64,000 bases of DNA, from contig NC_083382.1 of NCBI RefSeq assembly GCF_031755915.1, positions 8,308,001-8,372,000 on the forward strand. Direction: 5' to 3'. Shown here piece by piece: positions 10,608-63,140 of the stretch. The notes under the pieces were generated by a model. It was given only the letters and a program-made list of their open reading frames with translations. It searched no databases and was not told the DNA's origin. Every line of letters begins with the position of its first letter. The stretch's first letter is position 1. This DNA comes from Ziziphus jujuba. Lineage: Eukaryota; Streptophyta; Magnoliopsida; Rosales; Rhamnaceae. The position numbers and the translations under genes were made by a program.

Positions 10608-12384
10608 TTACTTATAAGTAACCATATGTTTCTCATTCAGAGGTGCTTCCATATCTGATGAGGAAGCAATACCACCATAGGAAGCTGACCATGTCGATAT
10701 AGAAACATCATCCCAAGGTGCAGTCATTTCATTTCTATCATATTCAACCACTTCAACATTTTGCTCAACATAATCAGAAGCTTTAACTGATTTTTGAATT
10801 CTCTCCAGCTCCATTGCCACTTCTTTCATCGAAGGCCTTTTCCTTCCACTCAAATCCAAGCATCTTTTCGCAAGTTTAGCAACTGCCATTATTGCTTCTT
10901 TCTCGCCAGTTGCTTCCTTCAAGACTCGAGCATCAACAATGTCAAACAAACGATTCTCTTCCATGGAAAGAATGAAAGAAGCTGCTAGACTTCCTCCTTC
11001 CTCTGCCTCCATAAAAACTGGTTTTCGTCCTGTCAACAGCTCAGCAAGAACCACCCCAAAGCTATATACGTCACTCTTATCGGTAAACTGGCTTGACTGG
11101 AAGTATTCAGGGTCCAAGTATCCAAATGTGCCATATACTAATGTGGTGAGGTGTGTTTGCTCAATTGTAACCGATCTTGAAGTTCCAAAATCTGCTATTT
11201 TTGCTCTGTACTTTTCGTCTAGGAGAATGTTTGAAGACTTTATGTCACGGTGATAAATGGGAAAGGAAGCAGCAGAATGCAAGTAGGAAAGAGCTCCTGC
11301 AATTTCCTGTGCAATTCGTAGGCGGGTTTCCCATGTTAGTTCAAAACCCTCATTTTGATCATGGATATACCGGAACAATGTTCCATTTGGTATAAACTCA
11401 TAAACTAGCAGAGGAACTTCAGTCTCCAAACAACATCCTAGTAGTTTAACAACACTCCTGTGATTAATTTGTGAAAGAATGACAACTTCATTAATGAACT
11501 CTGCGACTTTGAATCCATCAACTTTTTTAGACTTCTTGACAGCAACAATTTTTCCATCTGTCAACATTCCTTTGTAAACAGTACCTTGACCTCCCTGGCC
11601 AAGAACTCTGTTCGTGTTGAACTGGTCAGTTACCTTCTCTAACTCATCTGATTTAAACAACTTGGTTTTCTCAATATTGGCTTCCCCTGAAGATAATTGT
11701 TGTTGTAAAAACAATCCACCATTTTGTTTGAAAAACTTTTCTCTGCGTCTTTTTTTAATATACTTGGTTAGCAACCATGCTGAAGCTGATAGAAACAACA
11801 ATCCAAGGACGCCGCTGCCAACACCTGCATTTCTCAATCAGAAAGGAAAAATAGCTTGAATCGTCAATTGCATGAAGTTGACTACGTAAAAGACAATTTG
11901 TGCCATATGTGTTGGATTAGCAGCCCTTATGAATTCAACAGAAAATGTCCATGTTTTGTGGTACATTTAGAAAAGACAAAGGCAATAAAGGAAGTTGTTA
12001 ATTTGCTCAATATGTAATATTTTGTACTCAAATCCAGACACCATTCAAGCTTTTTTTATTTTTCATTTATATATACACTAGTCGAATTAATTAGTAATTC
12101 GTTAATTAGAGCATACCAATTAAAATTGCTTTTAGTGGAGACTTTTTGTGCTCTGGAAGGCTGCAGCCAACGCCTCCAAGATAGTCAGTACAAATATAGC
12201 CTTCGCCACAATAATTAGGATCTTTCTTGCAATGATCAATATCTGAAATGCATTGACAAATAAGCATGTGAAAAACTTTAAAAATAATAATAATAATAAT
12301 AATAATAATGATTTGCTGATTTGTCACATCACTTTGCAAAACAAACTGATTCAACTCTTGTAAAACTATTACACAAAGCTCACC

Positions 12385-18978: not shown

Positions 18979-19619
18979 GTTTTTCCAATTTTCATAAAAA
19001 ATTGAAGATCTTCGCATACGGTTTCGTCTATATCTCCCATCATTCTATCTAATTTTTCTCATCTTGCTTTTTATCAACCTCTACATGTGGTTTTCTTTTC
19101 TCACTTTCCATCTAGATTTGTTTTGTCTTCTTCAGCATTTCTTTTTTTTTTTTTTTTTTTTTTATAAAAAAAGCATACAGAAAGGGTATTAAGGTCCATC
19201 CAGTTATATATTTTGACAAGATTTAATTTTTACCAAAACATATATATTTTTTGTTTAAAGGCTTTTTAGAGGATTATTTAAGCAAAAAACTATCCAACAA
19301 TTCTCTTTATATTATATTCTTTATTTTTATTTTTCAATAAACATTTATTACTATATTTATTGCCTCATTCTTTTATTAAAATTCTCTCTCAATTATTTTA
19401 TTATTTCCCTCCTTTTTTTTTTTTTAAAGAAACAATACATTGATAACTAAAATAGATAGTGTGTTGGAAATTTAAATTATATTAATTTAATATTAAATAT
19501 ACATAAAGAATTTAACTCTCCAAATATGAAATCAATTTTATATTTTTAAATGTCAAACTACAAAATAAAAAATAAGTATGCAGAAGATAAAGGAGCCCCG
19601 TGGATGCTCTTACTAGCCA
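17920..19619. repeat. Duplicated intergenic block, copy 1
   Basis: Ordered homology with 38615-39660 and with 46260-47333 plus 52733-53040. Landmarks are 'atttatgatagtcatata', 'aataatagttaactc.gtaac', 'tatcttggctgcattcat', 'tggttttcttttctcac' and 'ttagaggattatttaag'. The point equivalent to the CACTA insertion (about 19277) is uninterrupted here. No coding content was seen, and several poly-T runs are present. Confidence 0.75.
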
Positions 19620-20330
19620 ATGCCTTTTCGTAATAGCTACATCAATTTGGATAAGAAAATTCTAAGTTAGGTTGTAGGGGACTTTAATGATATGACCAAT
19701 TGTGGTAAAATAAAAAGTAAGGACTTAGAGTTTTAAAACGTTTCCTACGTGGAAAATTTCATTCTGGCCATCACGAATTTACTGGGAAATTGTGTCTCTT
19801 TCATTAATACCTATAAAGTCATAAACTATTTAATGATCAAGCAATGACAAGAAGCTTCGCTAGAAGCAATTTTCTAGCATCAACAAAAAAATATTAATGA
19901 TATAATTTGAGATAAAATGAAATAAAGTCGATCTGTCGGCCATTAATTAGGGCATAGATTTTCGAATACAGTGGATTTATTAATTTCCCCTGTAAGTAGG
20001 AAACTCTTCATGCAGTTGATTTGTTTTTTCTTTTGTTCTACAAGTTTTTTGCCATAACCTCAACATTTTTGAACTTGGATATATATATATATATATATTT
20101 AATATTTTTGGATTGAGATAAGGTTTTTAGTTGGGTTCCTTATTAAAAAATAATTTCTTAAAACTAGCTGTTTTTGTAAATATTTGCATGCAAACAGTAA
20201 TATAATCTTATTAAATATAACAGAGGATGCAAGGCTGAAAACAGAGTCCTTGGAGGTAAAATCCGCTTTGTAAATTCTTTCAAATTCAATGCTTGCCTTG
20301 TCAACATTCGGTTAGACTAATTTCCGTTAT
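19620..20330. repeat. WAKL-cluster intergenic module, copy 2
   Basis: Same landmarks as 3725-4330 and 53085-53700, and nearest to the latter: 'atgctcttacta.ccaatgcc', 'tctgtcggccattaattag', 'gaggatgcaaggctgaaa'. It lies immediately 3' of WAKL-C. Confidence 0.75.
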
Positions 20331-20618: not shown

Positions 20619-22122
20619 TTACTTGGAAACTAAGAGTGGTAATGCATCTATTGGTGAAGCAATATTATTACCAGTGTTTATGTGTGAACCAGTTGGTGTG
20701 GAAACATCCTAAGGCTATGTTATTTCAGGCCTTACATATTCAACTTCTTCATGAGACTGTTCATTCAAAAAAGTTTTGGTTGATTTCTGAATTGCCTCCA
20801 ACTCCATTGGCACTTCTTTCATTGTGGGTCGATGCCTTCCTTTCAAATTCATGCAAGATTAGCAACTTCCATGGTTTGTTCCTTACTTCCTTTATTACCA
20901 ATTTTAGGATCAACTACATCAAACAAACGATTTTCCTCCATGCACATGAAGAAAAAATTTGCTAGGCTCCTTCCTTCTTTAAACCACTTTATATAAATTG
21001 TTTTTTGTCCCGTCAAGAGCTCAACGATTACCACACCGAAGCTATAGACATCGCCTTTCTATGTAAATTGGCTTGATTGGAAGTACTCAGGATCCAAATA
21101 GCCAAATGTACCATGTACCAGTGTCGCAACATGTGTTTGGTCAATGGTAACTGATTTTGAACTTCCAAAATCAGCAATTTTCACTCTGCACTTGTCATCT
21201 AAAAGTACGTTCAAAGACTTGATGTTGCAATGGTATAAGGGAAAGGAAGCTGCAGAGTGCAAATAGGAGAGAGCACTTGCAATTTCCAGTGCAATTCGTG
21301 AACGCATTTCCCATGTAAAAGGAAATTCCTCTTTTTGGTCATGTATATAGTTGGAAAGTTATCATTAGGTATGAATTCATAAACAAGAAGCGGAACTTCG
21401 GTCTCTAAACAGCATTCGAATAGTTTAACCACGTTCCTGTGATTAATTTGTGAAAGAATGAAAACTTCCTTAATGAATTCCACAAGTTACTCTTCGTCTA
21501 CTATTTTAGATTTCTTCACCACAACGCTTTTTCCATCCGCCACCTTTCCTTTGCAAATAGTACCTTGGCCACCTTGGCCTATAATTTTATTTGAATTGGC
21601 TTTGAGTAGCTCCTTTGAATTAAACACCTTGGTTTTAGCATGAAATTGTACTGCCCCTGAATATATGTGTTGCTGTAACAATAGACTACCATTTCGTTTG
21701 AAGAACTGTTTTCTATGTTTGATGGATTTTCTTTTCTTTATGAATTTTTGTGGACACCGTGTGCCAATAAGCAAACACAACACTCCAAGACCAATGCCGA
21801 AACCTGTACAAAGCTCAAGTTTATGAAATTGTCAAGCTAGTTTTTTTCTGTTTCATAATTATTCGTGGAAAAATGTGAATCATATCTAGAGAGATGGCAC
21901 TCAGCAGCATGCGCCTGCTAATTTAATCATTCTTAACATACTTCCTCTAGTCTTCATGAAAAGTAGTGCTATAAAATGATAAATTACTAGTAGTCTTGTG
22001 TTTGAATATTGTTGAGATAAGTGCATATGTATACATTTTCTTTTCATTTTAACTTGATATTTTATTGGTTATAATTTTTTTATAATCAGAAAATAAAAAT
22101 TAAATTGTTTTCTACATGAACA

Positions 22123-22160
<38 letters not shown>

Positions 22161-23003
22161 ACCATTGGACTGACATAGCTTTAAGGACAATTTTCACGTT
22201 AATCTTTCGGCACTCATATGATCTAATAGTGTCCACACAAGTTCCCGCTCCATGACATGTGGTGGGATCAATTTCACGTTCGTTGATATCTAATATGTAA
22301 AAGGTACAGCAAGTAAATCTCGAATTATTTTTTTTTATATTAAACTGCAAAATCAAAGATAGCACTGAAGCATTGGTATATAAAAAAGCCTTTGGTTGTA
22401 TTGATATCAAGCACTCAAAAAAGGTATATATATGTTATAAGGAGGTAGAATATTATTTACTACTCTGTCAATTATGTTTTACCTTGACATCCATCCAAAA
22501 GATATTAATTTCCTTCAAAGCCGTAGCCACAGTAGCATTCCAGCGCCGTTGATTGATTTATTGAAGAGATGGAAGCACTTTTGTACCAACGGATTGATTT
22601 CTTCCCTAACAAAAAATCAAGTTGTTCATCGGATTTATTTGTTCCAAAAATTTGTTGTTTTGAATCGTATAAGCTCCATTTTAGAGTTACAGGAACATAG
22701 TCCATATCGCGTATGGTAACGAAATCTGTATTGTTTGACATAAACCAATCTTGGCCTACCACAAATGCGTATTTGCACATTTGATCTCTTTCGGGTTGAA
22801 AAGTGTAGTGAAGGCCATTATTGCATGAGAAGGAATGGTAGTTTGGCTTGGCAGCAGTTCACTTCATTGCAGATATTGTTATAGTGGTTTGTGGTTTGTT
22901 AAGCACTTGGACTTGCAGCCTGAGGAAATCTCACTGCCATCTAAATTTGATGAAGACATTGAGTCTCAAACATTGCAATTGACCGCGATGAACATGTTTG
23001 TCC
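20619..23003 (-). pseudogene. WAKL-C pseudogene, 3' part (split by copia insertion)
   Basis: Reading on the minus strand from the insertion, there is an eroded ectodomain (MCKYAFVVGQDWFMSN..., ending in GYGFEGN). An EGF exon follows from 22289 (DINEREIDPTTCHGAG; the first EGF Cys is now Arg). The kinase exon begins near 21806 (GFGIGLG...). Lesions in the kinase are a TAA at 21487-21489 (after KIVDEE), a 1-bp deletion near 21355, HRD changed to HCN (YHCNIKS), a stop after FQSSQFT near 21059 and another near 20850. The C-tail ends near the TAA at 20619-20621. GQGGQG and [10 protein letters not shown] are still readable. The 5' part continues beyond the retrotransposon at 27591. Confidence 0.88.
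22999..23003. repeat. Copia target-site duplication, left copy
   Basis: TGTCC directly abuts the left LTR and is repeated at 27591-27595. A 5-bp duplication is the norm for Ty1/copia. Confidence 0.9.
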
Positions 23004-23462
23004 TGTTGTGGTTCTCTGACCACTTTAGAGAAGAAATATGAGAAGAAAAATAAAAAGAATTCTATTATTCTTTTGGAAATAGAATACAAAAATAAAAACT
23101 TCTCTCGTGGAGGATTCTCACATGGCACCTCTCTCTATATTGTCAAATTCTCTCTGGAATTGTTCGCTCTTCTCTCAAGCTCTCTTTGGAACTTAAACAC
23201 TCTTTCTCTCGGAGTTTACTCTCGATACTCCTCACTTGGGATGATATTGAGCTTGCTCGACTTGGCTTGAATATGCATGCAACGGGCCTATTTATAACCT
23301 TACTAAGTCGGTTGCATGGCCACCATTTTCAACTTCTTCTGATAGGTGCCCACAATTGTTGAGCAAACCATTTTTGGTGTTAATTGCAGCAACCATTGTC
23401 AACAATGGTGGCTGAGCAGTCTTCACACTGTCGGTGCAGTGGTGGTGCGGCTGGACTTCACA
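23004..23462 (-). repeat. Copia 3' LTR (left in window)
   Basis: 459 bp, the same length as the partner at 27132-27590, with no gaps and 18 substitutions by eye. Its plus-strand ends are TG and CA. Confidence 0.93.
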
Positions 23463-23482
23463 ATTCTCCCCCTCCAGCTGCA
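23463..23482 (-). other. Copia polypurine tract
   Basis: The minus strand reads CTGGAGGGGGAGAAT immediately before the 3' LTR, the expected site for plus-strand DNA priming. Confidence 0.85.
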
Positions 23483-23497
23483 TTTAAAAACTGATGG

Positions 23498-24243
23498 TCA
23501 TTTGCCATCCATTCCAGCTATGTCTCTGCATAGCTTCAGCTTCTCTTGAGCAACAACTTTTGTTAACATTTCTGCTGGATTCTCTTTTGTGTGGATCTTT
23601 ATTAGTTTCAGCAACTGTTGATCTATTACTTCACGTATCCAATGATAGCGGATGTCAATCTGCTTTGTACGGGAATGATACATTGAGTTTTTGCTCAAAT
23701 CTATGGCACTTTGGTTATCATAATGTATATTGTAGTCTTCTTGCTTGATGCCCAATTCTGTGAGAAAACGCTTTAAACACAACATTTCCTTACCCACTTC
23801 CGCTGCGGCAATGTACTCTGCTTCAGTAGTGGATAAACCAATACACTTCTGCAATCTTGACTGCCATGACACAGCTCCCCCGCAAAAATGTAGAGATAAC
23901 CTGATGTAGACTTTCTATTATCAGGGTCTCCGGCCATATCTGCATCTGTATAGCCTTCTAAGATTGGATCACCTCCCCCATAGCATAAACACAGCTTCGA
24001 TGTACCTTTAAGATACCTGAGAATCCATTTGACTGCTTCCCAGTGTTTCTTTCCAGGATTTGAAAGAGATCTGCTCACAACACCTACTGAGTGAGCAATG
24101 TCTGGTTTGTTACACACCATTGCATACATCAGACTTCCTACCATTGAAGAATATGGTACTGAAGCCATCTCCTCTATCTCTTCTTTGGATGAGGGGCACA
24201 ATCTCTTGCTCAACTTGAAATGATTTGCAAGTGGAATGCTTAC
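23498..24243 (-). pseudogene. Copia RNase H and RT-end remnant
   Basis: Downstream of the deletion joint the frame reads KSVSIPLANHFKLSKRLCPS, then the connection region (MVGSLMYAMVCNKPDIAHSV, GYTDADMAGDPDNRKSTSGY). It shifts by one base in a G-run near 23877-23881: GGAV expected, GELC found. The RNase H end follows in the new frame (WQSRLQKC, LSTTEAEYIAA, HTKENPAEMLTK). The catalytic RT core (the Y-x-DD region) is absent. Confidence 0.88.
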
Positions 24244-25342
24244 CGATTTGGCTTTCTTCCTCCTGGTCTGCTTCTGGTATATCTTCATGCACCTCATTAT
24301 CCTCTGTGACTTTTTGTGCTGGTGCTGGATTAGAACCAAAATTCTCGGCACTAGAACTACAATTGGGAGACATTATGGGCTTTTCAATGTCTTCCATTGT
24401 CTGGTTTTCATGGAATACTACATCCCTGCTTCTAATAACCTTCTTTGTTTTTGGGTCCCATAACCTGTATCCGAATTCTTCATCTCCATATCCTATAAAG
24501 ATGCATAGAGTAGATCTTGCATCGAGCTTCTGTCTAAGCTCTTTGGATACATGTACATAAGCTAAACAACCAAACACTCTTAAATGAGAGTAGGAGGGAA
24601 TCTTACCCGACCACATTTTCTCCGGAATTTCAAAATTCAAAGGTACTAACGGTGATCTGTTGATTAAATAGCAGGCGGCACGAACAGCTTCTCCCCAGAA
24701 TGGCTTTGGCAGCTTAGCCATACTGATCATACTTCTGAAATTTTCCATAATGGTTTGGTTCATTCTTTCGGCTATTCGATTATGTTGTGGGGTGTGAGGG
24801 ACCGTCTTCTCATGTCGAATGCCTTATCTTCTGCAGTAGGCATCGAACTCCTTGGAAGTATACTCGCCTCCATTATCTGAGCGGAGACATTTCAGCTTCT
24901 TTCCTATTTCACACTCTACCATGGTATGAAACAGTTTGAAGTAATCCAATACCTGGTCCTTTGTCTTCAAGAAATATACCCATACCTTCTGAGAAGCATC
25001 ATTAATGAATGTCAAGAAATACTTGTTGCCACATAATGATTCCACCTCCATAGGACCACAAACATCAGAGTGCACCAGACTAAGTAACTCTGATCTTCTC
25101 GATGCAGAGAAACTAAAGGAGACTCTATGTTGCTTACTAAACAAGTAGTGATTACAAGGATCTAGCACAGCATCCTTGCAAACAGTGATAAGCTTCTTCC
25201 TTGCCAAAGTGGACAATCCTTTTTCACTCATGTGACCGAGTCTCTGGTGGCACAGATTTTAAGACGCCTCTCCTTCTGCAATATTGAGGCTATCTGCACA
25301 TATCTTCACATGAGTTTTATACAATGTTCCATAAATATGTCC
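24244..25342 (-). pseudogene. Copia integrase remnant, nonsense-interrupted
   Basis: The region is in frame with gag but separated from it by TGA (25343-25345) and TAA (25259-25261), with a further TAA at 24824-24826. The zinc region reads CHQRLGHM...CNHYLF; a Trp-to-Cys change and a Cys-to-Tyr change are inferred from the family pattern. The catalytic core is visible as VHSDVCGPM, then RSDNGGEYTS, then AERMNQTIMENF for the Glu. A C-terminal GYR/FIGYGDEEFGYRLWDP stretch follows. The sequence jumps at about 24244 from an acidic linker (EADQEEES) straight into the end of the RT region. Confidence 0.9.
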
Positions 25343-25345
25343 TCA

Positions 25346-26533
25346 GGCGACAACTATGGCACCTTTCGTCATTTTCCATGTGCCTTTGCTGAAGTAGTTA
25401 TCATAGCCTTGCTTGTCTAAGGCTGCTCCCGAAAGTAGATTAAGCCAAAGATCTGGAACATGACGGACATCCTTCAAAGTGATTGTACAACCAACATTCG
25501 TTTTTATCTGAATATTACCAGTTCCCATAATCTTTGCGAAACTGGAATTTCCCATCTTTACCGTACCAAAGTCTCCTGCTTTGTACGTTTTGAAGAAATC
25601 TCTGTGTGGAGTGACATGGTAGGATGCTACAGTATCGACTACCCACTTAACATCTTGGGTTGATATATGAAGGCATGTCTCTTCTTCGGTGGAGCAGAGT
25701 GCCACTTCTCCTGTAACAGTGACTAGTGTCTCTCCATCCTTCTTCGGCTGATTACTTTGGAGTCTCTGCTCTCTCAACAACTTTCTGCAGTTCTTCTTCA
25801 TGTGACCCTTCAGGCCACAATGATAGCACTTATATGATAATTTTCTGCCTTCTGTAGATCTGCCTCTGCTCTTGCTTTTGCCTCTCCCCCTATCTCGACC
25901 ACCTCTTTGCTGTCTTCCTCTATCTGTGACGAGGGCATGTGACTGATCCATGCCAATGTCCTTTCTCTTGACTTCTTCATTAAATAGGGCATCCTTAACC
26001 ATAGACATAGTAAGTTTGCCATTCGGGACCGAATTGCTGAGAGAGACTACCAATGTCTCCCAACTATCTGGAAGAGAGCTTAGAAGTAGGAAGGCCTGAT
26101 CCTCATCCCCTAGTTGGTAATCCACAGCAGATAGTTGATTTACCAAGCTCTGGAACTCACTGGTATGCTCGGCTACAGAAGTTCCACTCTGTAATTTTAG
26201 ATTTACCAATCGCTTAAGCAACAGGGCTTTGTTCTGAGCAGTCTTGGCCTGGTACATGTCCTCCAATTTTATCCAGAGGGTATATGCATCCGTTTCCTTC
26301 GCTACATGATGGAAGACACTGTGGTCGATCCATTGCCTGATCTGACCAATTGTTTTCTTGTTTAATTTCTTCCATTCTGCTTCTTTGCTAGGATCGGGGT
26401 TTTCTCCTTTAGCTTCTATAGGATCAAACAGATCCTTACAATTGAGGAGATCTTCCATCCGAAGTCTCCAAAGTGTATAATTTGTGGCAGTGAGCTTAAC
26501 CATAACTCCCGAAGATGATGCTTCCATTGACAT
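25346..26533 (-). CDS. Copia gag and protease region
   Basis: A 396-aa open frame that packages the element RNA. It starts at 26533 (MSMEASSSGVMVKLTATNY) with the copia gag fold (YTLWRLRMEDLL, FQSLVNQLSAVDYQLGD) and a basic arginine/glycine-rich stretch at about 206-230. A CCHC zinc knuckle has C236, C239, H244 and C249. The aspartic protease site reads DTVASYH from D300, where the family has D-(S/T)-G-A: the flexible Gly is Val, so the protease is probably dead. The frame ends at a TGA where the family normally continues. It is open but belongs to a defective element. Confidence 0.88.
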
Positions 26534-27106
26534 TATGCCTCGACTGAAAATGGAGCCGAATTTAGCAAAACGGAGTTAACCGTTGCATTTGAAACAGCAA
26601 AAAATGGTGGACTTGACTCTTCCGGGGTCAAAATATAATTACCAGAATGTTGGAGGCAAAAATGTAATTTCATAAAAATTCTGGGTCAATCTGTAAATAC
26701 AGAAACTACAGAGGTCAATCTGTAATTTCCAACAATTCAGGGGCTGTTTCGTAATTTCAAAACCTTCTGCTGATGTGGCAGATTGTGTTGATGTGTCAAC
26801 ATGTAGCAGATGACGTGGCGATTACGTGGCTGACGACGTGTCGAGTCGCATGGCAGATGACGTGGCTGAGTGCGATGACGTGTCTGCTGATGTGGTCGTC
26901 TTCAACCTCCAGACGGCGCGTGCTACAGAAAATTTCAAACGGCACGTGCGGGCGCGTTAGGCTCGTCGTTTCTCTCCGACGAACTTGGTCGGTCTCTTCT
27001 CGTCGAGTAATTTCACCTGGTATTATCAAATTAATTATTTGAGCAACTTTTTGAAAGACCAACTTGAAGAACAGAGGCTTTATTTCTTCAAATTTTGAAC
27101 CCAAGC

Positions 27107-27131
27107 TCTCGACCTGAGCTCTGATACTACT
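27107..27131 (-). other. Copia primer-binding site
   Basis: The minus strand just inside the 5' LTR reads AGTATCAGAGCTC, close to the TGGTATCAGAGC primer site (initiator-Met tRNA 3' end) typical of plant copia elements. One or two bases next to the LTR differ. Confidence 0.75.
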
Positions 27132-27590
27132 TGTTGTGGTTCTCTGACCACTTTAGAGAAGAAATATGAGAAGAAAAATAAAAAGAATTCTATTACTCTC
27201 TTGGAAATAGAATACAAAAATAAAAACTTCTCTCGTGGAGGATTCTCACGTGGCACCTCTCTCTACATTGTCAAATTCTCTCTGGAATTGCTCACTCTTC
27301 TCTTAAGCGCTTTCTAGAACTTAAACACTCTTTCTCCCGGAGTTTACTCTCAATACTCCTCACTTGGGATGATATTGAGCTTGCTCGACTTGGCTTGAAT
27401 ATGCATGCAACGGGCCTATTTATAACCTTACTAAGTCGGTTGCATGGCCACCATTTTCAACTTCTTCTAACAGGTGCCCACAATTGTTGAGCAAACCATT
27501 TTTGGTGTTAATTGCCGCAACCATTGTCACCAATGGTGGCTGAGCAGTCTTCACACTGTCGGTGCAGTGGTGGTGTGGCTGGACTTCACA
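27132..27590 (-). repeat. Copia 5' LTR (right in window)
   Basis: 459 bp, colinear with 23004-23462. On the minus strand it should hold the element promoter. The partner TSD (TGTCC) follows at 27591-27595. Confidence 0.93.
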
Positions 27591-38614: not shown

Positions 38615-39660
38615 TAATTTGAAAAAGTAAATGAGTAATCAATTAAAATGTCATATAAATATATGAATTTCATTTATGATAGTCATATATAATAACATAA
38701 AGCATTTTTCATTCAATAATGGTGAACTCAGTAACCATTTGGTTTTTTTTTTTACATTTTGTTTTTTTTTTTATGATGTCGTTTTTGCACTTTTGACTTT
38801 TAAGTTATGTATTTCACTAATTTATTCTCACTTTTTATATTAATTTACTTTCACTTAAATAAATGAATTGTATTTATGATATGTTTAATACCTCTTTATA
38901 ATTACAAATAAACTATTTGTCCTCCTAAGGAAAATGAAACCCGCTAATTTCTATCTTGGCTGCAATCATAAATAACTGCAATCAAATTTGTTAGAGACCT
39001 AGGAAATGATAAATTTTTTGTTACAAATTAATCAATTTTAATGATTTGAATATTTAAAATGGTGTTGAGCTATACTTACTTTTTTTTTTTTTCAATTTGC
39101 TGCAATAATGGAGATCTTTCCTCTTCTTTTTTTTTTTTTTTCTTTTTCGATTTTCATAAAAAATGAAGATCTTTGCATGTGGTTTCGTCTATATCTTCCC
39201 TTATTTTGTGTAGATATTTTTTTTCCATTAAAAATTGAGATCTTTACATGTGGTTTCGTCTGCATCTTCCGTCATTCTATCTAATTTTTCTCTTCCTTGC
39301 TTTTTAATCAACCTTACTTATGGTTTTCTTTTCTCACTTTGCATCTAGATTTGTTTTGTCTTCTTCAGTTTTCCTTTTTCTTTTAAAAAGCATGTAATAA
39401 AGGTACGAAGGTCCATCCAACTCTATATCTCGACAAAATTTAAGTTTTACTAAAACATGTTTATTTTTCGTTTAAAGCCCTTTTAGAGGGTTATTTAAGC
39501 AAAAAATTATCTAAAAACGCTCTTTATATTACATTATTTATTTTTAATTTTTCAATAAACACTTATTACTATATTTATTTGCCTCATTTTTTTATTAGGA
39601 TTCACCCTCAATTATTTTATTATTTCCCTTTATTTTTTTAATTCTATTGTTTAGTTTTCA
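38615..39660. repeat. Duplicated intergenic block, copy 2
   Basis: Colinear with 17920-19400 and 46260-47333. It holds an uninterrupted version of the CACTA target (ttttagagggttatttaagc, 39481-39500). No coding content. Confidence 0.75.
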
Positions 39661-42984: not shown

Positions 42985-44185
42985 AGACAAATTACACCAT
43001 GAAATATCAAAATCATTGCAAATTGATCTAATTTTTAACAATGGTGACAAAATTAATGGTATTGATATTAACATGATGTCATAATTATTTTTTAACAATA
43101 AAAAATATATATTTAAAAAAATTTTGAAAAAAATACATTTGTTATTTTTTTATTTGAAAAATTGTATGAATTCCTTTTTTTATTTAAATTAAAATACTCA
43201 CAATCATAATTAAACATTTTTAGACCTGAAATTATATCAAAAATTAAATTAAAATAAAATTGAAATTTTTGGTCTACTAAAAATAATTTTATTAGACCCA
43301 AAATTAAAAATACTTTTTTATGCTCATACCCAAAATATATATATTTATATATACCAACATACCAAAATAAAAATTAGACCAAAAATTAAAAAAAAAAATT
43401 TAAATAAAGTTTTTTAAAAAAAATTGGAATTATCTTATTTTTCCATTTTTACTTTTGGTTTAATTAAATTATTTTTACTAGACCACGGATTATAATTTTA
43501 TTTAAATTTTTATTTTTTATCTAATTTTAGATTTAAAATTTTTTAATTATGATTGTGGATATTTTAATTTAAATACAAATGGATGTATATGATTTTTCAA
43601 ATAAAAAAATAAGAAATAAAAAATAAGAAATATAAAATAAAAAAATAAGAAACGAAATTTAAAAAAAAAACTCGAAAAATAAATTATGATAAAATTAGAC
43701 AAAAAAATTGTTTATTTTATTTTTAAATTTTTGGTCTAATTTTAATTTTCATATTTCGGGCCTTTTCTTTTGGTTCGGATATAAAAAAATATTTTTATTT
43801 TTTAATCTGGTAAAATTAGTTTTATTAGATCAAAATTTTCAATTTTACGTTAATTTTTTTTTTTTGGGTCTAGTTTTAGATTTAAAACTATTTAATTATG
43901 ATTATGGATATTTTAATTTAAATAAAAAAGGAATGCATGTAATTTTTCAAATACAAAACCACAAATATAAAATGGAAAAATAACAAATATATTTATTCAA
44001 ATTCTTTTTAAAAAGTTATTTCTAACAAACATTATGACATCAACAATAATGCTGACGTTATATTCAGATCAGTACCATTAATTTTAATACTACTATTAAA
44101 AATTGAATCAATTTAAAACAATTTTATAATTTTAAAATTTAATAATTATTGCATAATCTTAAAACTTCGTATGACAAAGTGTAAC
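42985..44185. mobile_element. Long fold-back (inverted-repeat) element
   Basis: The left arm (about 42985-43375) pairs with the reverse complement of the right arm (about 43690-44185). Examples are 'ttatttaaattaaaata' against 'tattttaatttaaataa', and 'aaaattaatggta.tgat' near the outer ends. A further partial copy lies between the arms at 43490-43610. No transposase frame and no clear target duplication, so the class (MULE-like or other fold-back) is open. Confidence 0.6.
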
Positions 44186-46259: not shown

Positions 46260-47333
46260 GTGATGATTTATTATTATTTTTTTGGATGATAACATAACAA
46301 TTAGTATTAATTTGATACATTTGACTTAATTTTATATATTGATTTTTTGTTTTTGCAAAAACTTTATAACACTCAAATTTTAATGTGAAAAAGTAAATGA
46401 ATAGCGAATTCAAATGTCATGCAAACATGTGGATTTCATTTATGATAGTTATATATAATAACATAAAGCATTTTTCATTCAATAATGGTTAACTCAGTAA
46501 CCATTTGCTTATTTTCTTTTTACATTGTTTTTCTTTTTAATGATGCCGTTTTTGTACTCTGACTTTTAAGCTATGTATTTCACTAATTTACTTTCACTTT
46601 TTATATTAATTGACTCTCACTTAAATAAATGAATTGTATTTATGATATGCTTAATACCTCTTTATTAAAAACTCAACCTTTTTTATTTTCCTCTTAAGAA
46701 AAATGAACGCGATAATTGCTATCTTGGCTGCATTCATCAATAACCGCAATCGAATTTGTCAGAGACCTGGGAAATGATAAATTTCTTGTCACAAAATAAA
46801 AGAATGCATAAGATAACCTTGACATTTATAATAAGTATTTATATATTTATTTTCTTTATGAAAAATGAACACAGAAGAAGTAAATCTGGAGAAAACTTGA
46901 GGATTTTTTTTTTTTCAATTTGTAGCATTAATGGAGATCTTTCTTCTTCTTTTTTTTTTTCCTTTTTTTTTCTTTTTCGATTTTCATAAAAAAATGAAGA
47001 ACTCTACTTGCAGTTCCTTTTATATCTTCCCTCATTCTATCTAGATTTTTTTTCGATTTTCATAAAAAATGGAGATCTTTGCATGTATTTTCGTCTATAT
47101 CTTCTGTCATTCTATCTAATTTTTCTGCTCTTTGCATTTTATCAACCTGTACAGGTGGTTTTCTTTTCTCATTTTGCATTTAGATTTGTTTTGTCTTCTT
47201 TAGTTTTTTCTTTTTCTTTTAAAAAGCATATACTAAAGGTATTAAGGTCCATCCAGCTATATATTTCAATAAGATTTAAGTTTTACTAAAACATGTATAT
47301 TTTTTGTTTAATGGCCTTTTAGAGGGTTATTTA
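46260..47333. repeat. Duplicated intergenic block, copy 3 (left of CACTA)
   Basis: Colinear with 17920-19280 and 38615-39500. It breaks at the TTA next to the CACTA element and resumes at 52730-53040. Confidence 0.8.
47331..47333. repeat. CACTA target-site duplication, left copy
   Basis: TTA, repeated at 52730-52732. The uninterrupted relatives at 19277 and 39493 carry a single TTA in the same context. Confidence 0.85.
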
Positions 47334-47394
47334 CACTACTAGAATCGTATTGATAAATGATGCAATAATTACGTCATATAAAATAAAAAATGAC

Positions 47395-47850
47395 GTATCG
47401 CACGGAGTCGCTTAACGCATGTCGCTAAAGCCATAAAACAATAAACGACGCATTATGAGAGTCGCTTATCTTTGAGTTTTTAGCGATTCAGATTGATTTT
47501 TAGCGACGTATCATAAGACTCACCTATCTTTGAGTTTTTAGCGTCTCAGATAGATTTTTAACGACACACCATAAGAGTAGTCTATTTTTTCGTTTTTAGC
47601 AACGCATCATAAGAGTCATCTGTTTTTGAGTTTTTAGTGACTCGGATAGATTTTTAATGACACACCAGGAGAGTCGCCTATCCTTGAGTTTTTAGCGACG
47701 CATATTGATTTTTAGTGACGCATGTTAACAATCCACTTATAGCGACGCATTATTTAGAACGACTTTTTTTAAAGCATCACTAAATATATGAGTCGCTAAA
47801 AATAGCAAATTAAAGGTCATCAAATATGTTAGGCGACTTTCTTATGTATT
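47395..47850. repeat. CACTA left subterminal repeat zone
   Basis: 'ttgagtttttagcg' and 'agagtcgcctatc.ttgag' recur about every 60 bases, with 'tagcgacgca' motifs. These are likely transposase-binding repeats (inference from En/Spm). Confidence 0.75.
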
Positions 47851-48419
47851 AATGCGTTGCCCTTTTTTTTTTTTTAATTTTGTGAAAAGTGATTAAAATA
47901 GTAAAAATATAAAAATAATTAAAATACAAAAAAACTAAAATTAGCTCCATCCAAAATAATTAGAATACAAAAATTTAAAATAAATATTTTTTCATAACAA
48001 TTAATTATCAAATAAATTAAATATTATCTCATTGACATATTTTTACATAATTTGTAAACTATTATATTTTTTCGTAACAAATATAATATTAATTAAACTT
48101 CCATGAATGCATACTCATTAAGATGGAAGTTGATGTCCTCTTGTTGATGATATTACACCCTCATACTATATATGGAAAAATTAAAAAACTTATTAACACT
48201 TATGCAAAATAAATAAAATATTAATCATTATTAATTTTTTAATTTAGTAGAATATTACCTTCTTAATATTTGGCGAGGCACATTTCTCCTAATTAAAAGT
48301 GAAAAATACATAATCAAGCGGATCAAAAAAATAATTTAATGAATGATAATAAATGTCATAAATATTACTTAAAACATAAGTTAATAAATATACGTACCAA
48401 TTTATTTAGAAGATATTGT

Positions 48420-48972
48420 TTATCTATATCCTTTTATAGTCATTCGAATATAGCCACTCTCACATTCATCTTTATTATCATTTTCATCAACGCTTGGCAA
48501 TTGTATGGCAAATGGATTGTGAGCCATCGTAGTATCGCCAAGAACATCTTCTTCAACCAATTCTTCTTCAACAAAATTACAAAATCGTGGTGGAGTTAAA
48601 ACAATAAACCATCTCAAATCAAGTTGATCTTCAACATAAACTATTTGTTGAACTTGTGAAGCCATGATGAATAGGTCAGATTTATATCTATTTTTATTAA
48701 ATTCAACACATGTAAATCCCGTCTCATGAACATACTGTCAGCATATGACTCACCATGCCAAATCCATCACCGATAGTTGACATCAAACCCATTCCAATAT
48801 ATATGGCCTTTAATATCCCTAATAGTATAGATTTTCATATTCCCACATTGCATGCAAGGACACCGTATGAAATTACAATCATTGGCATTCTCCATGCTAA
48901 ATTTCACAAACTCATTTACTTCGTTAGCAAAATCGCTTGAGATTCTATCTTTTGTTATCCACGATTAATCTA
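48420..48972 (-). pseudogene. CACTA transposase remnant: TAD fused to DUF4216 region
   Basis: On the minus strand 48972-48742 encodes the transposase-associated domain typical of TNP2-type proteins: SWITKDRISSDF, FIRCPCMQCGNMKIYTI, GHIYWNGFDVNYR, then TGA, then WIWHGESYAD. Immediately after, 48715-48420 reads EFNKNRYKSDLF, ASQVQQIVYVEDQLDLRW, VLTPPRF, matching the C-terminal DUF4216 region. The entire catalytic middle is missing. The initiating Met codon is also lost (a stop precedes SW). The acidic C-tail ends at a stop at 48420. Confidence 0.85.
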
Positions 48973-50080
48973 TTTCCCTACTAATCTAAGCAGAACAATA
49001 TCAAACAATATCACAAACAAATTATTGACAAAAGTAAGATTAAGAAAACCCAGCGAGCCTAACCTTCGGTTATAATGAAAAAATAAAAAAATAAAAAATA
49101 ACCCAACCAGCCACATGTCACCACCAATCATAAAGAAAAAAGAAACTCACCGAAACTATGGAGAAGAAGAAAGAAGAAGCCAAGCTAACCACGAGGCCAA
49201 CATAGAGAAATCCAGCTTCCAAACAGCAATGCAGGCAAATGGAAACTTAAACTCGAAATATCCCACTCTACAAGTCTCTCTGAGATTGCTTCCAATTCTA
49301 ATATCTATTAGGTAATCTACTAACATCTATTTTTGGAAAAGAAATGGTATTCAAACGCCCGCGTAAAATTTTAATACGCGCAAAAAATTTTCAGAAAATG
49401 GTAAAACAGACGACCCATTTAAATAAACTGTGTCACTAAAGGTTAGACGTGACAACGGATCAGGCGATGCAATAACATTGTTAGAGTTGGCTTTTTTTTT
49501 TTAATTCTTAAATTTTTTTTTTCGACACGTTATCTTCAGATAGCGTTGCATGTTCTTTTATTTATGTTTTTTCACCCTTTAAATGGGATTTTGTACTTTA
49601 TTTGAGTTTAAAATTTGCATTTGCTTTTAAAATATGCAACTCTCATAAATGTTCATGTTCCGTCTTTAAAATTTTAAGAACAGACGATGCAGTTGCAATT
49701 AAAAAAGACGCCTTATACCCTAGTATTTAAAATTTATTTTTAAGATTTGATTAGTTTTTTGAAATTTCATCTACAAATATTTTCACGTAGCATTCCAATG
49801 AACATCAATTCCATTGATCTAAAAACATAAAACAGTTATATCAATGCTCTTTTCAATTATTCATATATATGTGCATATATGAAACACAAAAACTCATCTC
49901 TCACAACCTAATTTGAGATAGGGTATACCAATTGCAAATTGATCTAATGCAACAAGGGCTTATAGTCCAATTGCTTGACGTAAGTATGTTCAATGAGATG
50001 AACTTTCAGGTTTTTGGGTATCAATGATAGTTTATTTGAATTTAAAATTTATAATAGATTAAATATTTTTGTTTTATTTT
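48973..50080. other. CACTA internal non-coding segment
   Basis: Contains scattered GCGATGCA-like motifs (49460, 49550, 50090) but no regular period. A short plus-strand frame at 49115-49315 has no recognisable domain. Confidence 0.5.
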
Positions 50081-52330
50081 GACATAACAAGCGATGCATT
50101 AAATGATACATGGGTCGCCAGATATTTAAGACAACCCATTCTAAAGGGAACATGCGATGCATCAGTTTCATTCCGAGTCACCTATATCTTTTTTTTTTTT
50201 TTTTAATTCTATAATAATCTGATTTTCTTACAATTTCAAATACCTAGTGAAAATATTTAAGTAACATAACTTAGCTGGTATTTTTTCTCTCTTTTTTTTT
50301 TTTTTGGGCTCATATGAACAGGCAACGCAGACGCCTCGTTACGCGTCGCCCATTGCCTTTTATTTCTTATTTTTAAAATTAATCTAGTTTTTTTTAAAAT
50401 TCAAATAACCAGTGAAAATATGTAAGCAATATACTTGAGCCGTTTTTTTTTTTTTTAGATAAAAAGAACAAGCGACGCAGGCCTTTCATTACATGTTGCA
50501 TGTTCTCCTATATATATATTTTTGTTTTAATTAATTTGATTTTCTGTCAACTTCAAATAAATAGTGAAAATATTTAAGCAACATAATAGAGCTGGTTTTT
50601 TTTTTTTTTAAAAGATATTGGTAACAGGTGATGCACAGATATCATTATGAGTCGCCTACTACCTTTTTTTTTTTTTTTTTCAAATCAATCTAATTTTATT
50701 TCAACTTCAAATAACCAGTGAAAATATTTAAGCAACATAACTGAGCTGGCTTTTATTGTTACCAATATTTAGGATATTTGTAACAAGAGACGCACAGGAT
50801 TGATTATACGTCGCCTGTTTCTTTTTTTTTTTTTTTTTTGTTCTTTTAATCAATCTTATTTTATATCAACTAAAAATAACCAATGAAAATATTAAAGTAA
50901 CATAACTAAGCTAGATTTTTATTTATTTATTTATTTTAAAGATATTGGTAATAGGCGACGCATAAGCGTCATTATGCATCGCCTATTCTCTTTTTTTTTT
51001 TTTATTTTTTTAATCAATTTAATTTTATTTCAACTTCAAATAACCAGTAAAAATATTTAAGCAATATAACTGAGCTAATTTTTTTTTTTCAATATAGGTA
51101 ACAGGCGACGCACAGTCTTCTTTATGTGTCGCTTGTTCTTTTTTTTTTTTTTTTTTTTTAATCAATTTAATTTTATTTCAACTACAAATAACTAGTGAAA
51201 ATATTAGAGCAACAAACTGAGCTGGTTTTTTTTTTTTTTAAATAGATTTTGGTAGCAGGCGATGCACAATTCCTGTTCTCCTTTTTTTTTTTTTTTTTTT
51301 TGGGTTCTTTTAGTCAATCTAATTTTATTTCAACTACAAATAACTAGTGAAAATATTAGAGAAACATAATTGAGCTGATTTTTTTTTTTTAAAATTTTGA
51401 TAATAGGCGAAGCATAATAAAGATTGTGTGTCGCCTATTCTTTTTTTTTTTTTTTGATTTTTTTTATGAATCTAATTTTATTTCAACTACAAATAACCAG
51501 TAAAAATATTAGAGCAGCATAACTAAGCTGGTTTTGTTTTATTTTTTTTAATTTTCTTTAAGATATTAGTAACTGGCGACGCACTATTACTAACTGGAGA
51601 TGCACAATGTGCGTTGCCTATTAATGGTAACTGGCGACGAAGAATGTGCGTCACCTATTACTAACTGGAGATGCACAATGTGCATCACCTGTTACCAAAA
51701 TCTTAAAAAAAAAAAAAATAGCTCCGTTATGTTACTTTAATATTTTCATTGGTTATTTGTAGTTAAAATAAAATTAGATTGATTAAACGAATTAAAAAAA
51801 AAAAGAACAGGTGATGCATAAAGAAGACTGTGGATCGCATGTTACCTAAATTTAAAAAAAACAAAGAGCACAATTATGTTGCTTAAATATTTTTACTGGT
51901 TATTTAAAGTTGAAATAAAAGTAGATTGATTAAAAGAAAAAAAAAAAAAGGGTGACGCATAATGAAGCCTGTGCATTGCCTGTTACCAATATCTTAAAAA
52001 TAAAAAAACAAAAAAAAAGCTCAGTTATATTGTTCTAATATTTTCACTGATTATTTGAAGTTGAAATAATATTAAATTGATTAAAAGAACAAAAAAAGAA
52101 AAAAAAGAGAGAACATGCGACGCATAAAGAAGACTATGTGTTGCCTGTTACCTTTAAAAAAAAAAAAAAAAAACAGTTCAGTTATGTTGCTTAAATATTT
52201 TCACTGGTTATTTGAAGTTTTAAAGAAAAGCAGGTTGATTTAAAAAAATAAAAATAAAAGGGAAACATGCGACTCGGAATGATTTTTGTGCGTCGTCTGT
52301 TACCAATATCTTTAAAAAAAAAAAAAAAGA
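50081..52330. repeat. CACTA internal array of about 155-bp units, opposed orientations
   Basis: About ten plus-oriented units (to about 51600) each contain 'gg.aacaggcgacgcac', 'gtcgcctgttctttttttt', 'tttatttcaact.caaataa', 'agtgaaaatattt' and 'ataactgagctgg'. From about 51690 to 52330 roughly four units appear as the reverse complement. The turn (51575-51690) holds four short GCGACGCA/GATGCACA motifs. Poly-T lengths vary between units. Confidence 0.85.
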
Positions 52331-52499
52331 ATACTATTTAAGAGATTTACAAGAATAAACTGTACATGAAAAATTATATAATTGAGCAACAAACCTCGTA
52401 TAATTAAATTTTGTTATTATGTAAACATCGATAAGTGGATGATTAATCATTTTTCATAAGTTTAGCATTTAGACAATACAATTCAGATAAAATCTATGT

Positions 52500-52729
52500 A
52501 CAGTATTAAAGGTGACTCTGTTCAGCCGCATATTTAGTGACTCTTAACGGATGTGTCGCGTGTTGTTGTTTTTAGCGACTGTTTGACATCAACAGTTTTG
52601 GAATACGTCGTATATTTATTGAATTTTTACTTACGCGTTAACCTTGAAGTCACGATTTTGTTTTTTCAAATGTGTTTGTTTCGTAGCGTCGTTAAGTGAG
52701 TGTCACTAGATATCAATTTTGGCATAGTG
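52500..52729. repeat. CACTA right subterminal zone and terminus
   Basis: AGCGAC, GCGTCG and GTCGC motifs occur close together, ending 'ttttggcatagtg' at 52729. Confidence 0.7.
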
Positions 52730-53084
52730 TTAGGGAAAAAATTATCTAACAATACTCTTTATATTATATTTTTAATTTTTAATTTTTCAATAATCATTTA
52801 TTACTATATTTATTTGCCTCATTTTTTATTATGATTCTCTCTTAATTATTTTATTATTTTCTTCTATTTTTTTATTCTAAAAATAATAGATTGATAACTA
52901 AAAAAGACAGTGTTTTCAAAATTTAATTAGCATTAAATTATATTAATATAATATTAAATATACATAAAGAATTTGACTCTCTAAGTATGAAGAACTAAAC
53001 TAATTTTATACTTTAAAAAATTAAATTACAAAATAAAAAGTATGCATAAGATAAAAGAGCCCCTTGGATGCTCTTACTGGTCAA
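52730..53084. repeat. Duplicated block copy 3, right of CACTA
   Basis: Resumes 'aaaaaattatctaacaatac', matching 19280-19610 and 39500 onward. Confidence 0.8.
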
Positions 53085-53968: not shown

Positions 53969-55252
53969 TTAATTGGAAACTAATACTGGTAACGCATCTA
54001 TTGATGAAGCAATGTTATTACCAGTGTTCGTGTGTGAAGCAGTTGATGTGGAAACATCCCAAGGCTCTGTTATTTCGGTCCTTACATGTTCAACTTCTTC
54101 ATGAATCTGTTCATGAGGAAGAATGGTAGTTTGGCAGCGGTTCACTCCATTGCAGTTCCTGTTATAGTGATTTGTTAAGCACTTGGACTTGCAGCCTGCT
54201 GAAATCTCACTGCCATCTAAGTTTGATGAAGACATTAAGGCTCGAACATTGCAACTGACAGCGATGAATATGTTGTCCCTCATCGAAAAGGAAAAGGGGC
54301 TTCTTGTCAAGTTTAGAGATTCGTGGGCTTCTTTGACTGTGCAATTCCAGAAAGTTACTGGATTTTTTTACCTGAATCTGTTGGCAAGTCAATTCGTAAT
54401 TTTAGTTTGTAGATATTATATTATATATATATTTTTTTCATACTATCTGTATACGTTAGTTTTTATCATATGATTCTTCATAGCGAGAAAGTATATGGCT
54501 AAAAACTCCTGGAATTTCAAAAGAATATTCAACCATGTGGTTAATTTTTTACTATCCTCTTAACTGCTTGTATCTTGAAAGTAAATGTTATGATCTCTGT
54601 TAAAAAAACTTAACAGGTATAATATTCAACCTACTTATTACTAACAGATTAAGCTTTTGAAAACCATGATAACTTAATATGGTAACAAAGCTCCAAAGTC
54701 TTCAACACAAGTTCAAATCACGCCAAATGGCCTATAAGGGGAAATATTGACATAACTAATATATACATAATAAACTTATTTCCTAATAATAGTGATTTCG
54801 ATTCACTAAAAAATATATAAGATGCATACAAGATTTCTACTTGATTCTTAATAAAATAAGAAATAATAATAATTACTGGATACAATATTTATGTAACGAA
54901 ATGGTGTTTATTTCATCCCTAATATTTGTATTAATTACTCAAAACGTCTTATGACAAGCCCTAGTAGTCTTCCAAAGAAATTTTGTGGACTTGGGAGATT
55001 GGTGCGCTTAAGGTAAGGTGTGTGAGGGAAGGTAGAGGGGTTGCAGACTATTTCGAACCATTCATCAACATAACAATCTGTGGATCCAATTCTGAAAGGA
55101 AATGGGATTCTTACGTTTCCGCATTCCGTTTCACAACCAGGCTTGCCTATGCTTACCGCTACTACTGATGATACTGTAACAATATTAATGATCAGCCATG
55201 ACAATCCAATCACTTGAACAAGCACCAGTACCAGCCTTCTGATCCCGGCCAC
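53969..55252 (-). pseudogene. WAKL-E: ectodomain-to-tail deletion pseudogene
   Basis: Exon 1 from the ATG at 55252 gives a signal peptide (MAGIRRLVLVLVQVIGLSWL) and CETECGNVRIPFPF. A one-base C insertion (LKRTNL becomes PSPQ) shifts frame near 54998, and the donor equivalent to WAKL-D GT is TT. Exon 2 (about 54380-54120) has the same 7-A insertion as WAKL-C. After CQTTILPHEQ the frame joins in phase to the kinase C-tail (EEVEHVRTEITEPWDVST...), ending at 53969. The rest of the ectodomain, the EGF, membrane and kinase exons (about 2.1 kb in WAKL-C coordinates) are deleted. It is unlikely to make a protein. Confidence 0.87.
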
Positions 55253-60405: not shown

Positions 60406-61362
60406 ATTAGTCCATTGTTAACTTGCTTTCTGAAAGATTTATAGGGAAAATATCACATATATGTATAATATTATATTGTTTGCATTTCTATTTTAGAGAA
60501 TTTCATCAGAGCTTTTTTTTTTTTTTTTCCTTCTCTTTTTGGGTTATATTGAAGATAGAGGGAATCGAATCATTGAAAAAAGAAAAAAAAAATAAAAAAG
60601 ATTTAGCAGTGGAATATCAAAGCCCTTTAATGTTCGATTTTCAAAAGGTGCGCAAGTGGAACAGTGGAGCGGGGAGGGGTTGAATGTGCCCTGTTAGGCC
60701 CATTTGGGTCCGCCATGATGATTCCACTCCCACTCCCAAATCCCAACATCATGCTTTCCATAAAAGGAATTTGGTACAATGTCCCTTTTAGAAGGGCTAT
60801 AATGATATATACTCCTTTATCAGTCAATTTTTTTTTTTTTTGTCCTTTAATATCCATTACATCCTTAAAAAAATTTTAAAAGACCTGTATATTCTTTATT
60901 TTAAATTTAATATAAGAAAACCTTTTATGGCTCCTACGATTTGGCTTCTAGGTTCTCATAAAAAACCAATACTGAAATTAGAAAGAGGACCAAATCTAAA
61001 GACAACATGTTTGAGTTCGAAGAAGCAATGCTCAAATCTTCAGGCTAATGCTCGACGATGCTCATCTTTAATCCTGCCTTTATTTCTATGAGTATCGGAA
61101 TGCTTTTACCTTCTCACTTGTGGTTGTTTCTTCTCTGCTGCTTCATAAATACTTGAATGCTGGATCGGAAGAATCTGGTTCTTTAGCAAATAGTGGTTTT
61201 GTTCTGGTTCTACTAGGATTTGTGGTTGTTTTTAAGTTTCTAACGTTGCTCGCCAAGGTTTCTTTTGAAAAATCAGTGTCAAGGAGGCCAGAGAAGCGTG
61301 AATAGAATCACCAAAAATTCTGAAAATGTTATCAAATTGGCAAAACAATTTGATTGTTGTAG
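60406..61362. other. Spacer, frames of unknown meaning
   Basis: Overlapping short frames on both strands (for example 60840-61091 and 61120-61305, plus). The latter contains a hydrophobic stretch (GFVLVLLGFVVVFKFLTLLA). No family recognised, and I do not call a gene. Confidence 0.35.
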
Positions 61363-63140
61363 GTTCTTCGGTAATTACCGATGAAACCTATGGTAATCAA
61401 TTTGTCCTTCCTGGAAAAATTACCCTAGGTTTCATCGATAATTATCGAAACCCCTGTGGTAATCACATTTTATCAATTTTTTTGCCTCCACAAGTCCCCT
61501 AATGTGTGTCAAATGCAACAACATGCAAAATATACATTCTTTAATGATCCTAATGAGAAAAAATTCCAAAAGTTCAGAAAAAGTTCTCAAATTGCCAAAA
61601 AATTTATTACCGTAGGGTCTTCGGTAATTACCAATGCAACCTACGGTAATCAATTTGTCCTTGCTAGAAATATTACCGTAGGTTACATCGGTAATTACCG
61701 AAACCTTTATGGTAATCACACTTTATCAATTTTTTAGCGCCCACAAGTCCTTTAATATGTGTTAAATGTAACAACATGCAAAATATACTTTCTTCAATGA
61801 TCCTCAAGAGAAAAAATCCCTAAAGTTCTGAAAAAGTTCTCAAAGGGGCACAAAAATTTGATTACCGTAGGGCCTTTGGTAATTACCGATGAAACCTACG
61901 ACAATCAATTTATAGTTGCTGGAAAAATTACCATAGGTTTCATTGGTAATTACCGAAACCCTATGGTTATCACATTTTACCAATTTTTTGGCCCCCACAA
62001 GTCCCCTAATGTGTGCTAAATGCAACAAAATGCAAAATATACATTCTTTAATGATCCAAAGGAGAAAAAAATCAAAAAAATTTTGAAAAAGTTCTAAAAT
62101 TGCCAAAAAAAATTTATTACCGTATGGTCTTCGGTAATTACCGATGCAACCTATGGTAGTCAATTTGTCCTTGCTGGAAAAATTACCATAGGTTTCATCG
62201 GTAATTACCGAAACCCCAGTGGTAATCACATTTTACCAATTTTTTGACGCCCACAAGTCCCCTAATGTGTGTTAAATGCAACAACATGCAAAATATACTT
62301 TCTTCAATGATCCTAAAGAGAAAAAATCTCAAAAGTTCTGAAAAATATTTTAAATGGGCACAAAAATTTGATTACCATAGGGCCTTCGGTAATTACCGAT
62401 AAAACCTACGATAATGAATTTGTAGTTGCCGGAAAAATTACCGTAGTTTCATCGGTAATTACTGAAACCCCTATGATTATAGCATTTTAACAATTTTTTG
62501 GCCCCCACAAGTCCCCTAATGTGTGTTAAATGTAAAAACATGCAAAATATACTTTCTTCAATGATCCTAAGGAAAAAAAATCCCAAAAGTTCTGAAAAGT
62601 TCTCAAATTGGCACAAAAATTTGATTACCTTAGGGTCTTCGGTAATTACCGATGGAACCTACGGTAATCAATTTGTCCTTTCTTGAAAAATTACCGTAGG
62701 TTTCATCAATAATTACCGAAACCCCTATGGTTATCACATTTTATCAATTTTTTGGCCCCCACAAGTCCCCTAATGTGTGTTAAATGCAACAACATGCAAA
62801 ATATACTTTCTTCAATGATCCTAAGGAGAAAAAACCCCAAAAGTTCGGAAAAAGTTTTGAAATTGGCAAAAAAAATTTATTACGTTGGGCTTTCAGTAAT
62901 TACCGAAGTAACCTACGGTAATCAATTTGTCCTTGCTGAAAAAATTACCATAGATTTCATCGGTAATTACCGAAACCCCTGTGGTAAATTATGGTGATTT
63001 GCTTTGAAAAGATGGACAAATTGAAATTACCAACGGGGTATTGATAATTACCGACGAAAATTAGCGGTAATTTTTCTTGCAAGTAAATCGGGTTGCCGAT
63101 GGTTTTCATCAATAGTTACCGATTGTCCGTCAGTAATCAA
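61363..63140. repeat. Tandem array, about 254-bp unit, 7 copies plus degenerate end
   Basis: CGGTAATTACCG-type palindromes mark each unit at about 61369, 61622, 61877, 62132, 62387, 62640 and 62895, a spacing of 253-255. Each unit has a second palindrome about 75 bases on, so the pair flanks 'acctacggtaatcaattt' and 'aaaattaccgtaggttt'. Between them run 'cccacaagtcccctaatgtg' and 'acatgcaaaatatac'. Two unit types alternate in the middle. A degenerate version continues to about 63140. Open frames across the array only reflect its period. Confidence 0.9.

Follow-up and report, generated by a model that had tools for sequence, protein, structure and literature searches.

A non-autonomous CACTA transposon and its two paralogous empty sites in a wall-associated kinase cluster of Ziziphus jujuba

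The window, a stretch of 64,000 nucleotides from contig NC_083382.1 of Ziziphus jujuba, holds repeated blocks that are part of a wall-associated kinase (WAK) cluster, with Pkinase, GUB_WAK_bind and WAK domains, and this cluster is partly decayed. Among the best 120 of 7,990 protein matches to the kinase at 10608-11837, the highest identity (97%, covering 99% of the query) belongs to a protein of Ziziphus jujuba, which ranks third by E-value within that set. Kinase homologues at 20636-21873 and 7540-8565 have no long open frame, their longest minus-strand stop-free runs being 114 and 110 codons, whereas the copies at 10709 and 32472 reach 345 and 405; judged by these frames, they are decaying WAK copies. 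Our statements on the blocks are based on self-comparison matches of more than 150 bits in the window (111 matches in total). Three copies, A, B and C, are considered here. At 54112-54114, block C is without approximately 2 kb that hold the kinase part of the WAK homologue in block A (20764-22824), the A-C match breaking at A 20764 / C 54114 and resuming at A 22824 / C 54112. Block A carries a Copia-type LTR retrotransposon (23004-27590), with 459-bp LTRs that are 96% identical and a duplicated TGTCC. Elsewhere in the window there is a tandem array of a 254-bp unit in 6.6 copies (61306-62987), as well as a 1.1-kb fold-back sequence (43009-44125) which matches its own reverse complement at 67%.

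Copy C contains a CACTA element of 5,396 bp (47334..52729), which is non-autonomous and has a transposase remnant on the minus strand; features are unstranded here unless a strand is named. By direct reading, the left flank terminates in GAGGGTTATTTA at 47333 and the element starts with CACTACTAG at 47334, while its other end, GGCATAGTG at 52729, is followed by TTAGGGAAAAAATTATC. The termini CACTA...TAGTG are those of the CACTA superfamily. A TTA is read on either side of the element (47331..47333 and 52730..52732), as an earlier note on this DNA had claimed, and the 3-bp target site duplication is evident from TTA/TTA in the filled copy versus a single TTA in two empty sites. Immediately beyond the right TTA, at 52733-52735, the filled copy reads GGG and both empty copies read AGC, so that two of the first three bases beyond the insertion differ.

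The empty target sites lie at 19278..19280 in block A and at 39495..39497 in block B. The earlier note had described the flanking sequence as uninterrupted near 39481-39510 and, in diverged form, at 19266-19300, and both copies are indeed without the insert. In Blast comparisons the match to the left flank stops at base 19280 in A and base 39497 in B; that to the right flank begins at 19278 and 39495, respectively, so that the two overlap by 3 bases, the single TTA, in A and in B. The joined flanks align across the joint over 473 columns at 83% identity in A and over 384 columns at 87.5% in B, with a single TTA at the joint in both. One-sided homology or an unduplicated TTA, either of which would have told against an insertion, are both excluded; homology is present to the left and to the right of the joint. 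The right-side homology in B is short (~150 bp, to 39646); in A it reaches 20028 and, past a gap, resumes at 20164 and runs as far as 20764 in the self-comparison. A 26-base empty-site word drawn from copy B (39486-39511), whose match to B is perfect by construction, has one further match in the window when as many as 3 mismatches are allowed; it lies at 19269-19294 and differs at 2 positions. The same search thus returned no third empty site in the window beyond A and B, and none of 100 shuffles gave a match. No excision footprint was seen at either empty site. The kinase homology of block A starts approximately 1.4 kb past the target site, and hence the insertion was probably intergenic.

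The ends of the element are far less telling. The window holds 13 CACTA/TAGTG pairs with equal 3-bp flanks, 0.3-16 kb apart and with the real pair included, and two of these use the end at 47334, one of the two being the real pair. Compared over their first 13 bases, the two ends are alike at only 7 positions, a score exceeded by 4 of the 13 pairs. When the first 24 bases of the ends were shuffled with CACTA retained, 2031 of 5000 trials reached the same local similarity, and the best local match, the 7-mer ATTGATA, does not lie equally far from the two termini. As a terminal inverted repeat, for which about 13 bp or more would be expected, CACTA alone is common to both ends of the one copy compared; it may be a genuinely short repeat or what is left after the ends of an old element degenerated. 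The ends by themselves were ruled out as boundary evidence by the 13 pairs with matching flanks; proof of the boundaries comes from the empty sites, the ends having no significant similarity beyond CACTA. The emphasis of the earlier note on empty sites over ends was well placed, given that the ends alone are uninformative in this control, and its view that ends and target are provable inside the window is borne out, since two paralogous empty sites fix the ends, the target and the duplicated TTA.

Two pieces of a transposase survive on the minus strand, with coordinates computed from the residue numbers of the profile matches. A remnant of the Transpos_assoc domain lies at 48749..48964 (PF13963, profile 2-74 of 74, across one stop), and the C-terminal half of DUF4216 lies at 48600..48728 (PF13952, profile 30-73 of 73), 20 bp away and in a different frame. 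Searched as stop-free minus-strand pieces, both are over the curated cut-off (E 1.6e-16 for PF13963 and 6.3e-08 for PF13952); in the read-through frame PF13952 scores 28.8 bits, below its cut-off of 30.6. Neither Transposase_21 nor DUF4218, nor any other family, was found to E 0.1 in the six frames of the element with X at stops. A weak match to DUF1835 (E 0.014, under the cut-off) was considered for a third transposase piece and set aside. Intact CACTA transposases have TAD, Transposase_21, DUF4218 and DUF4216 in one ORF (PMC8978399). The TnpD-type transposase is present here as a remnant only (PF13963 plus the C-terminal half of PF13952), and the catalytic Transposase_21 of an autonomous element is missing. 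Read from its sequence, the element is a remnant without a catalytic core and non-autonomous; with no detectable catalytic domain, it would be mobile in its present form only via a transposase acting in trans.

Subterminal repeats in direct and inverted orientation, as is characteristic of CACTA elements, lie near both ends. The left subterminal region (47334..47870) has 58- and 96-bp repeats with TTTTTAGCGAC and GCGACGCA, and the right terminal region (52331..52729) has TTTTTAGCGAC in common with it, the inner limit of each region being set by eye. At up to 1 mismatch, GCGACGCA occurs 35 times in the 5.4-kb element versus twice in the other 58.6 kb; less specific are AGCGACGC (19 in the element, 3 in the rest of the window) and, at 1 mismatch, TTAGCGAC (17 and 18). 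The 11-mer TTTTTAGCGAC occurs three times in the left end, once in the right end and nowhere else in the element or the window, and the termini therefore most likely belong to one family. CpG observed/expected is 1.15 in the element; the C flank has 0.47 and block A 0.58. The use of CpG as an age clock was dropped, as the excess lies in the repeat regions; the middle of the element, at 0.87, falls inside the 0.21-0.90 range spanned by 2-kb bins in the remainder of the window.

Much of the right half is an array of ~150-bp units, ~2.2 kb in all, whose orientation inverts. The forward arm (50146..51584, plus strand) has nine units by anchor, the anchors running from 50237 to 51490, and the inverted arm (51679..52330, minus strand) has four, from 51739 to 52194, with an anchor spacing of 147-165 bp inside each arm. 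Six plus/minus pairs of the motif word lie exactly 20 bp apart within 50091-51427, and many of the units thus have a small hairpin. In the self-comparison one arm matches the reverse complement of the other at up to 81% (677 columns), and pairs of units (n=78) have a minimum K2P of 0.16 and a mean of 0.34. A simple single inversion of the array is unsupported, the same forward unit, F6, being the closest to each of R2, R3 and R4. As RNA, the array folds at -606 kcal/mol over 1,441 nt, a value computed without a shuffle control. Rfam gave no match at gathering scores, and a plasmid collection gave none to the right end of the element. Were the head-to-head array transcribed, it could yield a long hairpin RNA and hence small RNAs directed against its own family, which would make this dead copy a silencing locus. 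We regard such a role as very improbable; what speaks for it is the inverted array together with the uncontrolled fold.

The order of events can be read in part from the three copies. Distances were calculated first on all 1,020 gap-free columns, visibly misaligned stretches included, and also on a filtered set of 758 columns, for which identity in 31-column windows had to be 65% or more, a filter that biases distances downward. Flank K2P between A, B and C is 0.14-0.16 on the filtered columns and 0.17-0.22 on the 1,020. The copies are star-like and nearly equidistant (branches A 0.080, B 0.076, C 0.063), and distances and bootstrap single out no pair as the latest split, B-C being closest in 260 of 500 replicates. 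The element is present in one of the three copies and the other two have clean single-TTA targets, which places the insertion after the separation of copy C; the near-equidistance of A, B and C allows nothing finer to be said. The earlier claim that the insertion followed the duplication agrees with this, as a relative date only. Its added alternative, that the element hit only one copy, is accurate in that one copy holds it, but it restates the same claim and is not a second possibility. The placing of the CACTA insertion relative to C's separation, with no absolute age attached, is thus supported by comparison of the copies.

The mean array K2P of 0.34 exceeds the flank value of 0.14-0.16, so most of the array would be older than the insertion if rates are alike, a claim resting on the mean and on equal rates because the unfiltered flank distances overlap the lowest array distances. 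On these figures, the element probably brought most of its repeat array with it. The Copia element of block A has no counterpart in block C at ~54274, and its insertion must likewise have come after the A/C split. Its LTR divergence is 0.041 (bootstrap range 0.020-0.064), and the A-C divergence is 2.7 to 5.5 times as large, depending on the columns used (0.108, 0.142, 0.222). The CACTA element offers no comparable clock of its own.

We consider it very likely that a non-autonomous, internally deleted CACTA (En/Spm-type) transposon inserted at the TTA of copy C when the block had already been duplicated in the WAK cluster. The catalytic part would have disappeared by internal deletion, and a transposase from an intact relative would have cut the element out elsewhere, in trans, and pasted it into copy C with a 3-bp staggered cut. 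Several observations sit less easily with this explanation, among them the sub-threshold PF13952 score in the read-through frame and the low specificity of TTAGCGAC. The GGG beside the right TTA requires two substitutions in the filled copy, and the ends match at just 7 of 13 bases, whereas the repeats of soybean Tgmt* are imperfect yet recognisable over 13 bp. The poor match of the ends is also what gives some room to the idea that two different CACTA elements moved together, as a hybrid or macrotransposon, one giving each end; the left repeats are also built of a different unit from that of the ~150-bp array. However, TTTTTAGCGAC is found at both ends and is absent elsewhere in the window, and there is a single set of transposase remnants, which makes such a composite improbable.

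Cut-and-paste elements can excise, and tandem copies can convert each other. The element might on this basis be ancestral to the block and have been lost precisely from A and B, the insertion then predating the duplication, with footprint-free excision or gene conversion between the tandem copies as routes; no tree contradicts this, the three copies being nearly equidistant. A and B would need to have lost the element independently, or one loss would need to be combined with a conversion, and both empty copies have a single TTA, no footprint and an identical AGC beyond it, so we think it distinctly improbable. The likelihood that the gap is instead a deletion or other rearrangement, with a CACTA start and a TAGTG end by chance, is negligible: such pairs with matching 3 bp are common enough in the window, but the ends equal the alignment gap to the base in two empty copies, and CACTA transposase domains and subterminal repeats lie inside.

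The insertion of a CACTA element into copy C matters for what its empty sites provide. Paralogous empty sites fix the ends where terminal repeats are too poor for structure-based detection, and they place two insertions, one of a DNA transposon and one of a retrotransposon, in sequence with the local gene duplications. The locus is a self-contained worked example, and it yields a CACTA family to seek in jujube-like genomes. Literature searches for the jujube genome with CACTA transposable elements, and for a CACTA insertion with an empty site in a tandem duplication, found nothing; for CACTA with Ziziphus, the matches listed concerned unrelated topics such as cacti and plants that are wild or of medicinal use.

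Non-autonomous CACTA elements with paralogous empty sites are well known, and this one is a clean textbook case. Within the CACTA (En/Spm) superfamily, dSpm is a defective deletion derivative, and soybean Tgm1-7 are described as such in PMC2613891. The jujube element resembles these defective derivatives in its CACTA ends, 3-bp duplication, subterminal repeats in both orientations and lost transposase core. In the same paper, soybean Tgmt* is a putatively autonomous element of 20.5 kb with imperfect 13-bp terminal repeats, whereas the ends of the jujube element share just CACTA. Both have strongly asymmetric, stem-loop-capable subterminal regions (12 stem-loops in the right border and 2 in the left in Tgmt*; PMC2613891), but the Tgmt* repeats of the right border lie within 732 bp of the end, while the jujube motif words extend ~2.6 kb from the right end and the array inverts. 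A kilobase-scale tandem array of similar unit length is shared with the Jozin-type CACTA elements of Chenopodium, which are reported to have a satellite of 171-bp units (PMC8978399) close to the 3' end and consensus monomers 97.7-98.8% alike between elements. Unlike these, the jujube units are ~150 bp long, diverged (mean K2P 0.34) and bear the subterminal motif itself, and the array lies on the 5' side of the transposase remnant. Against this background, the element is mildly odd in two respects: its terminal repeats are poor, and its inverted array, with units that bear the motif, is long.
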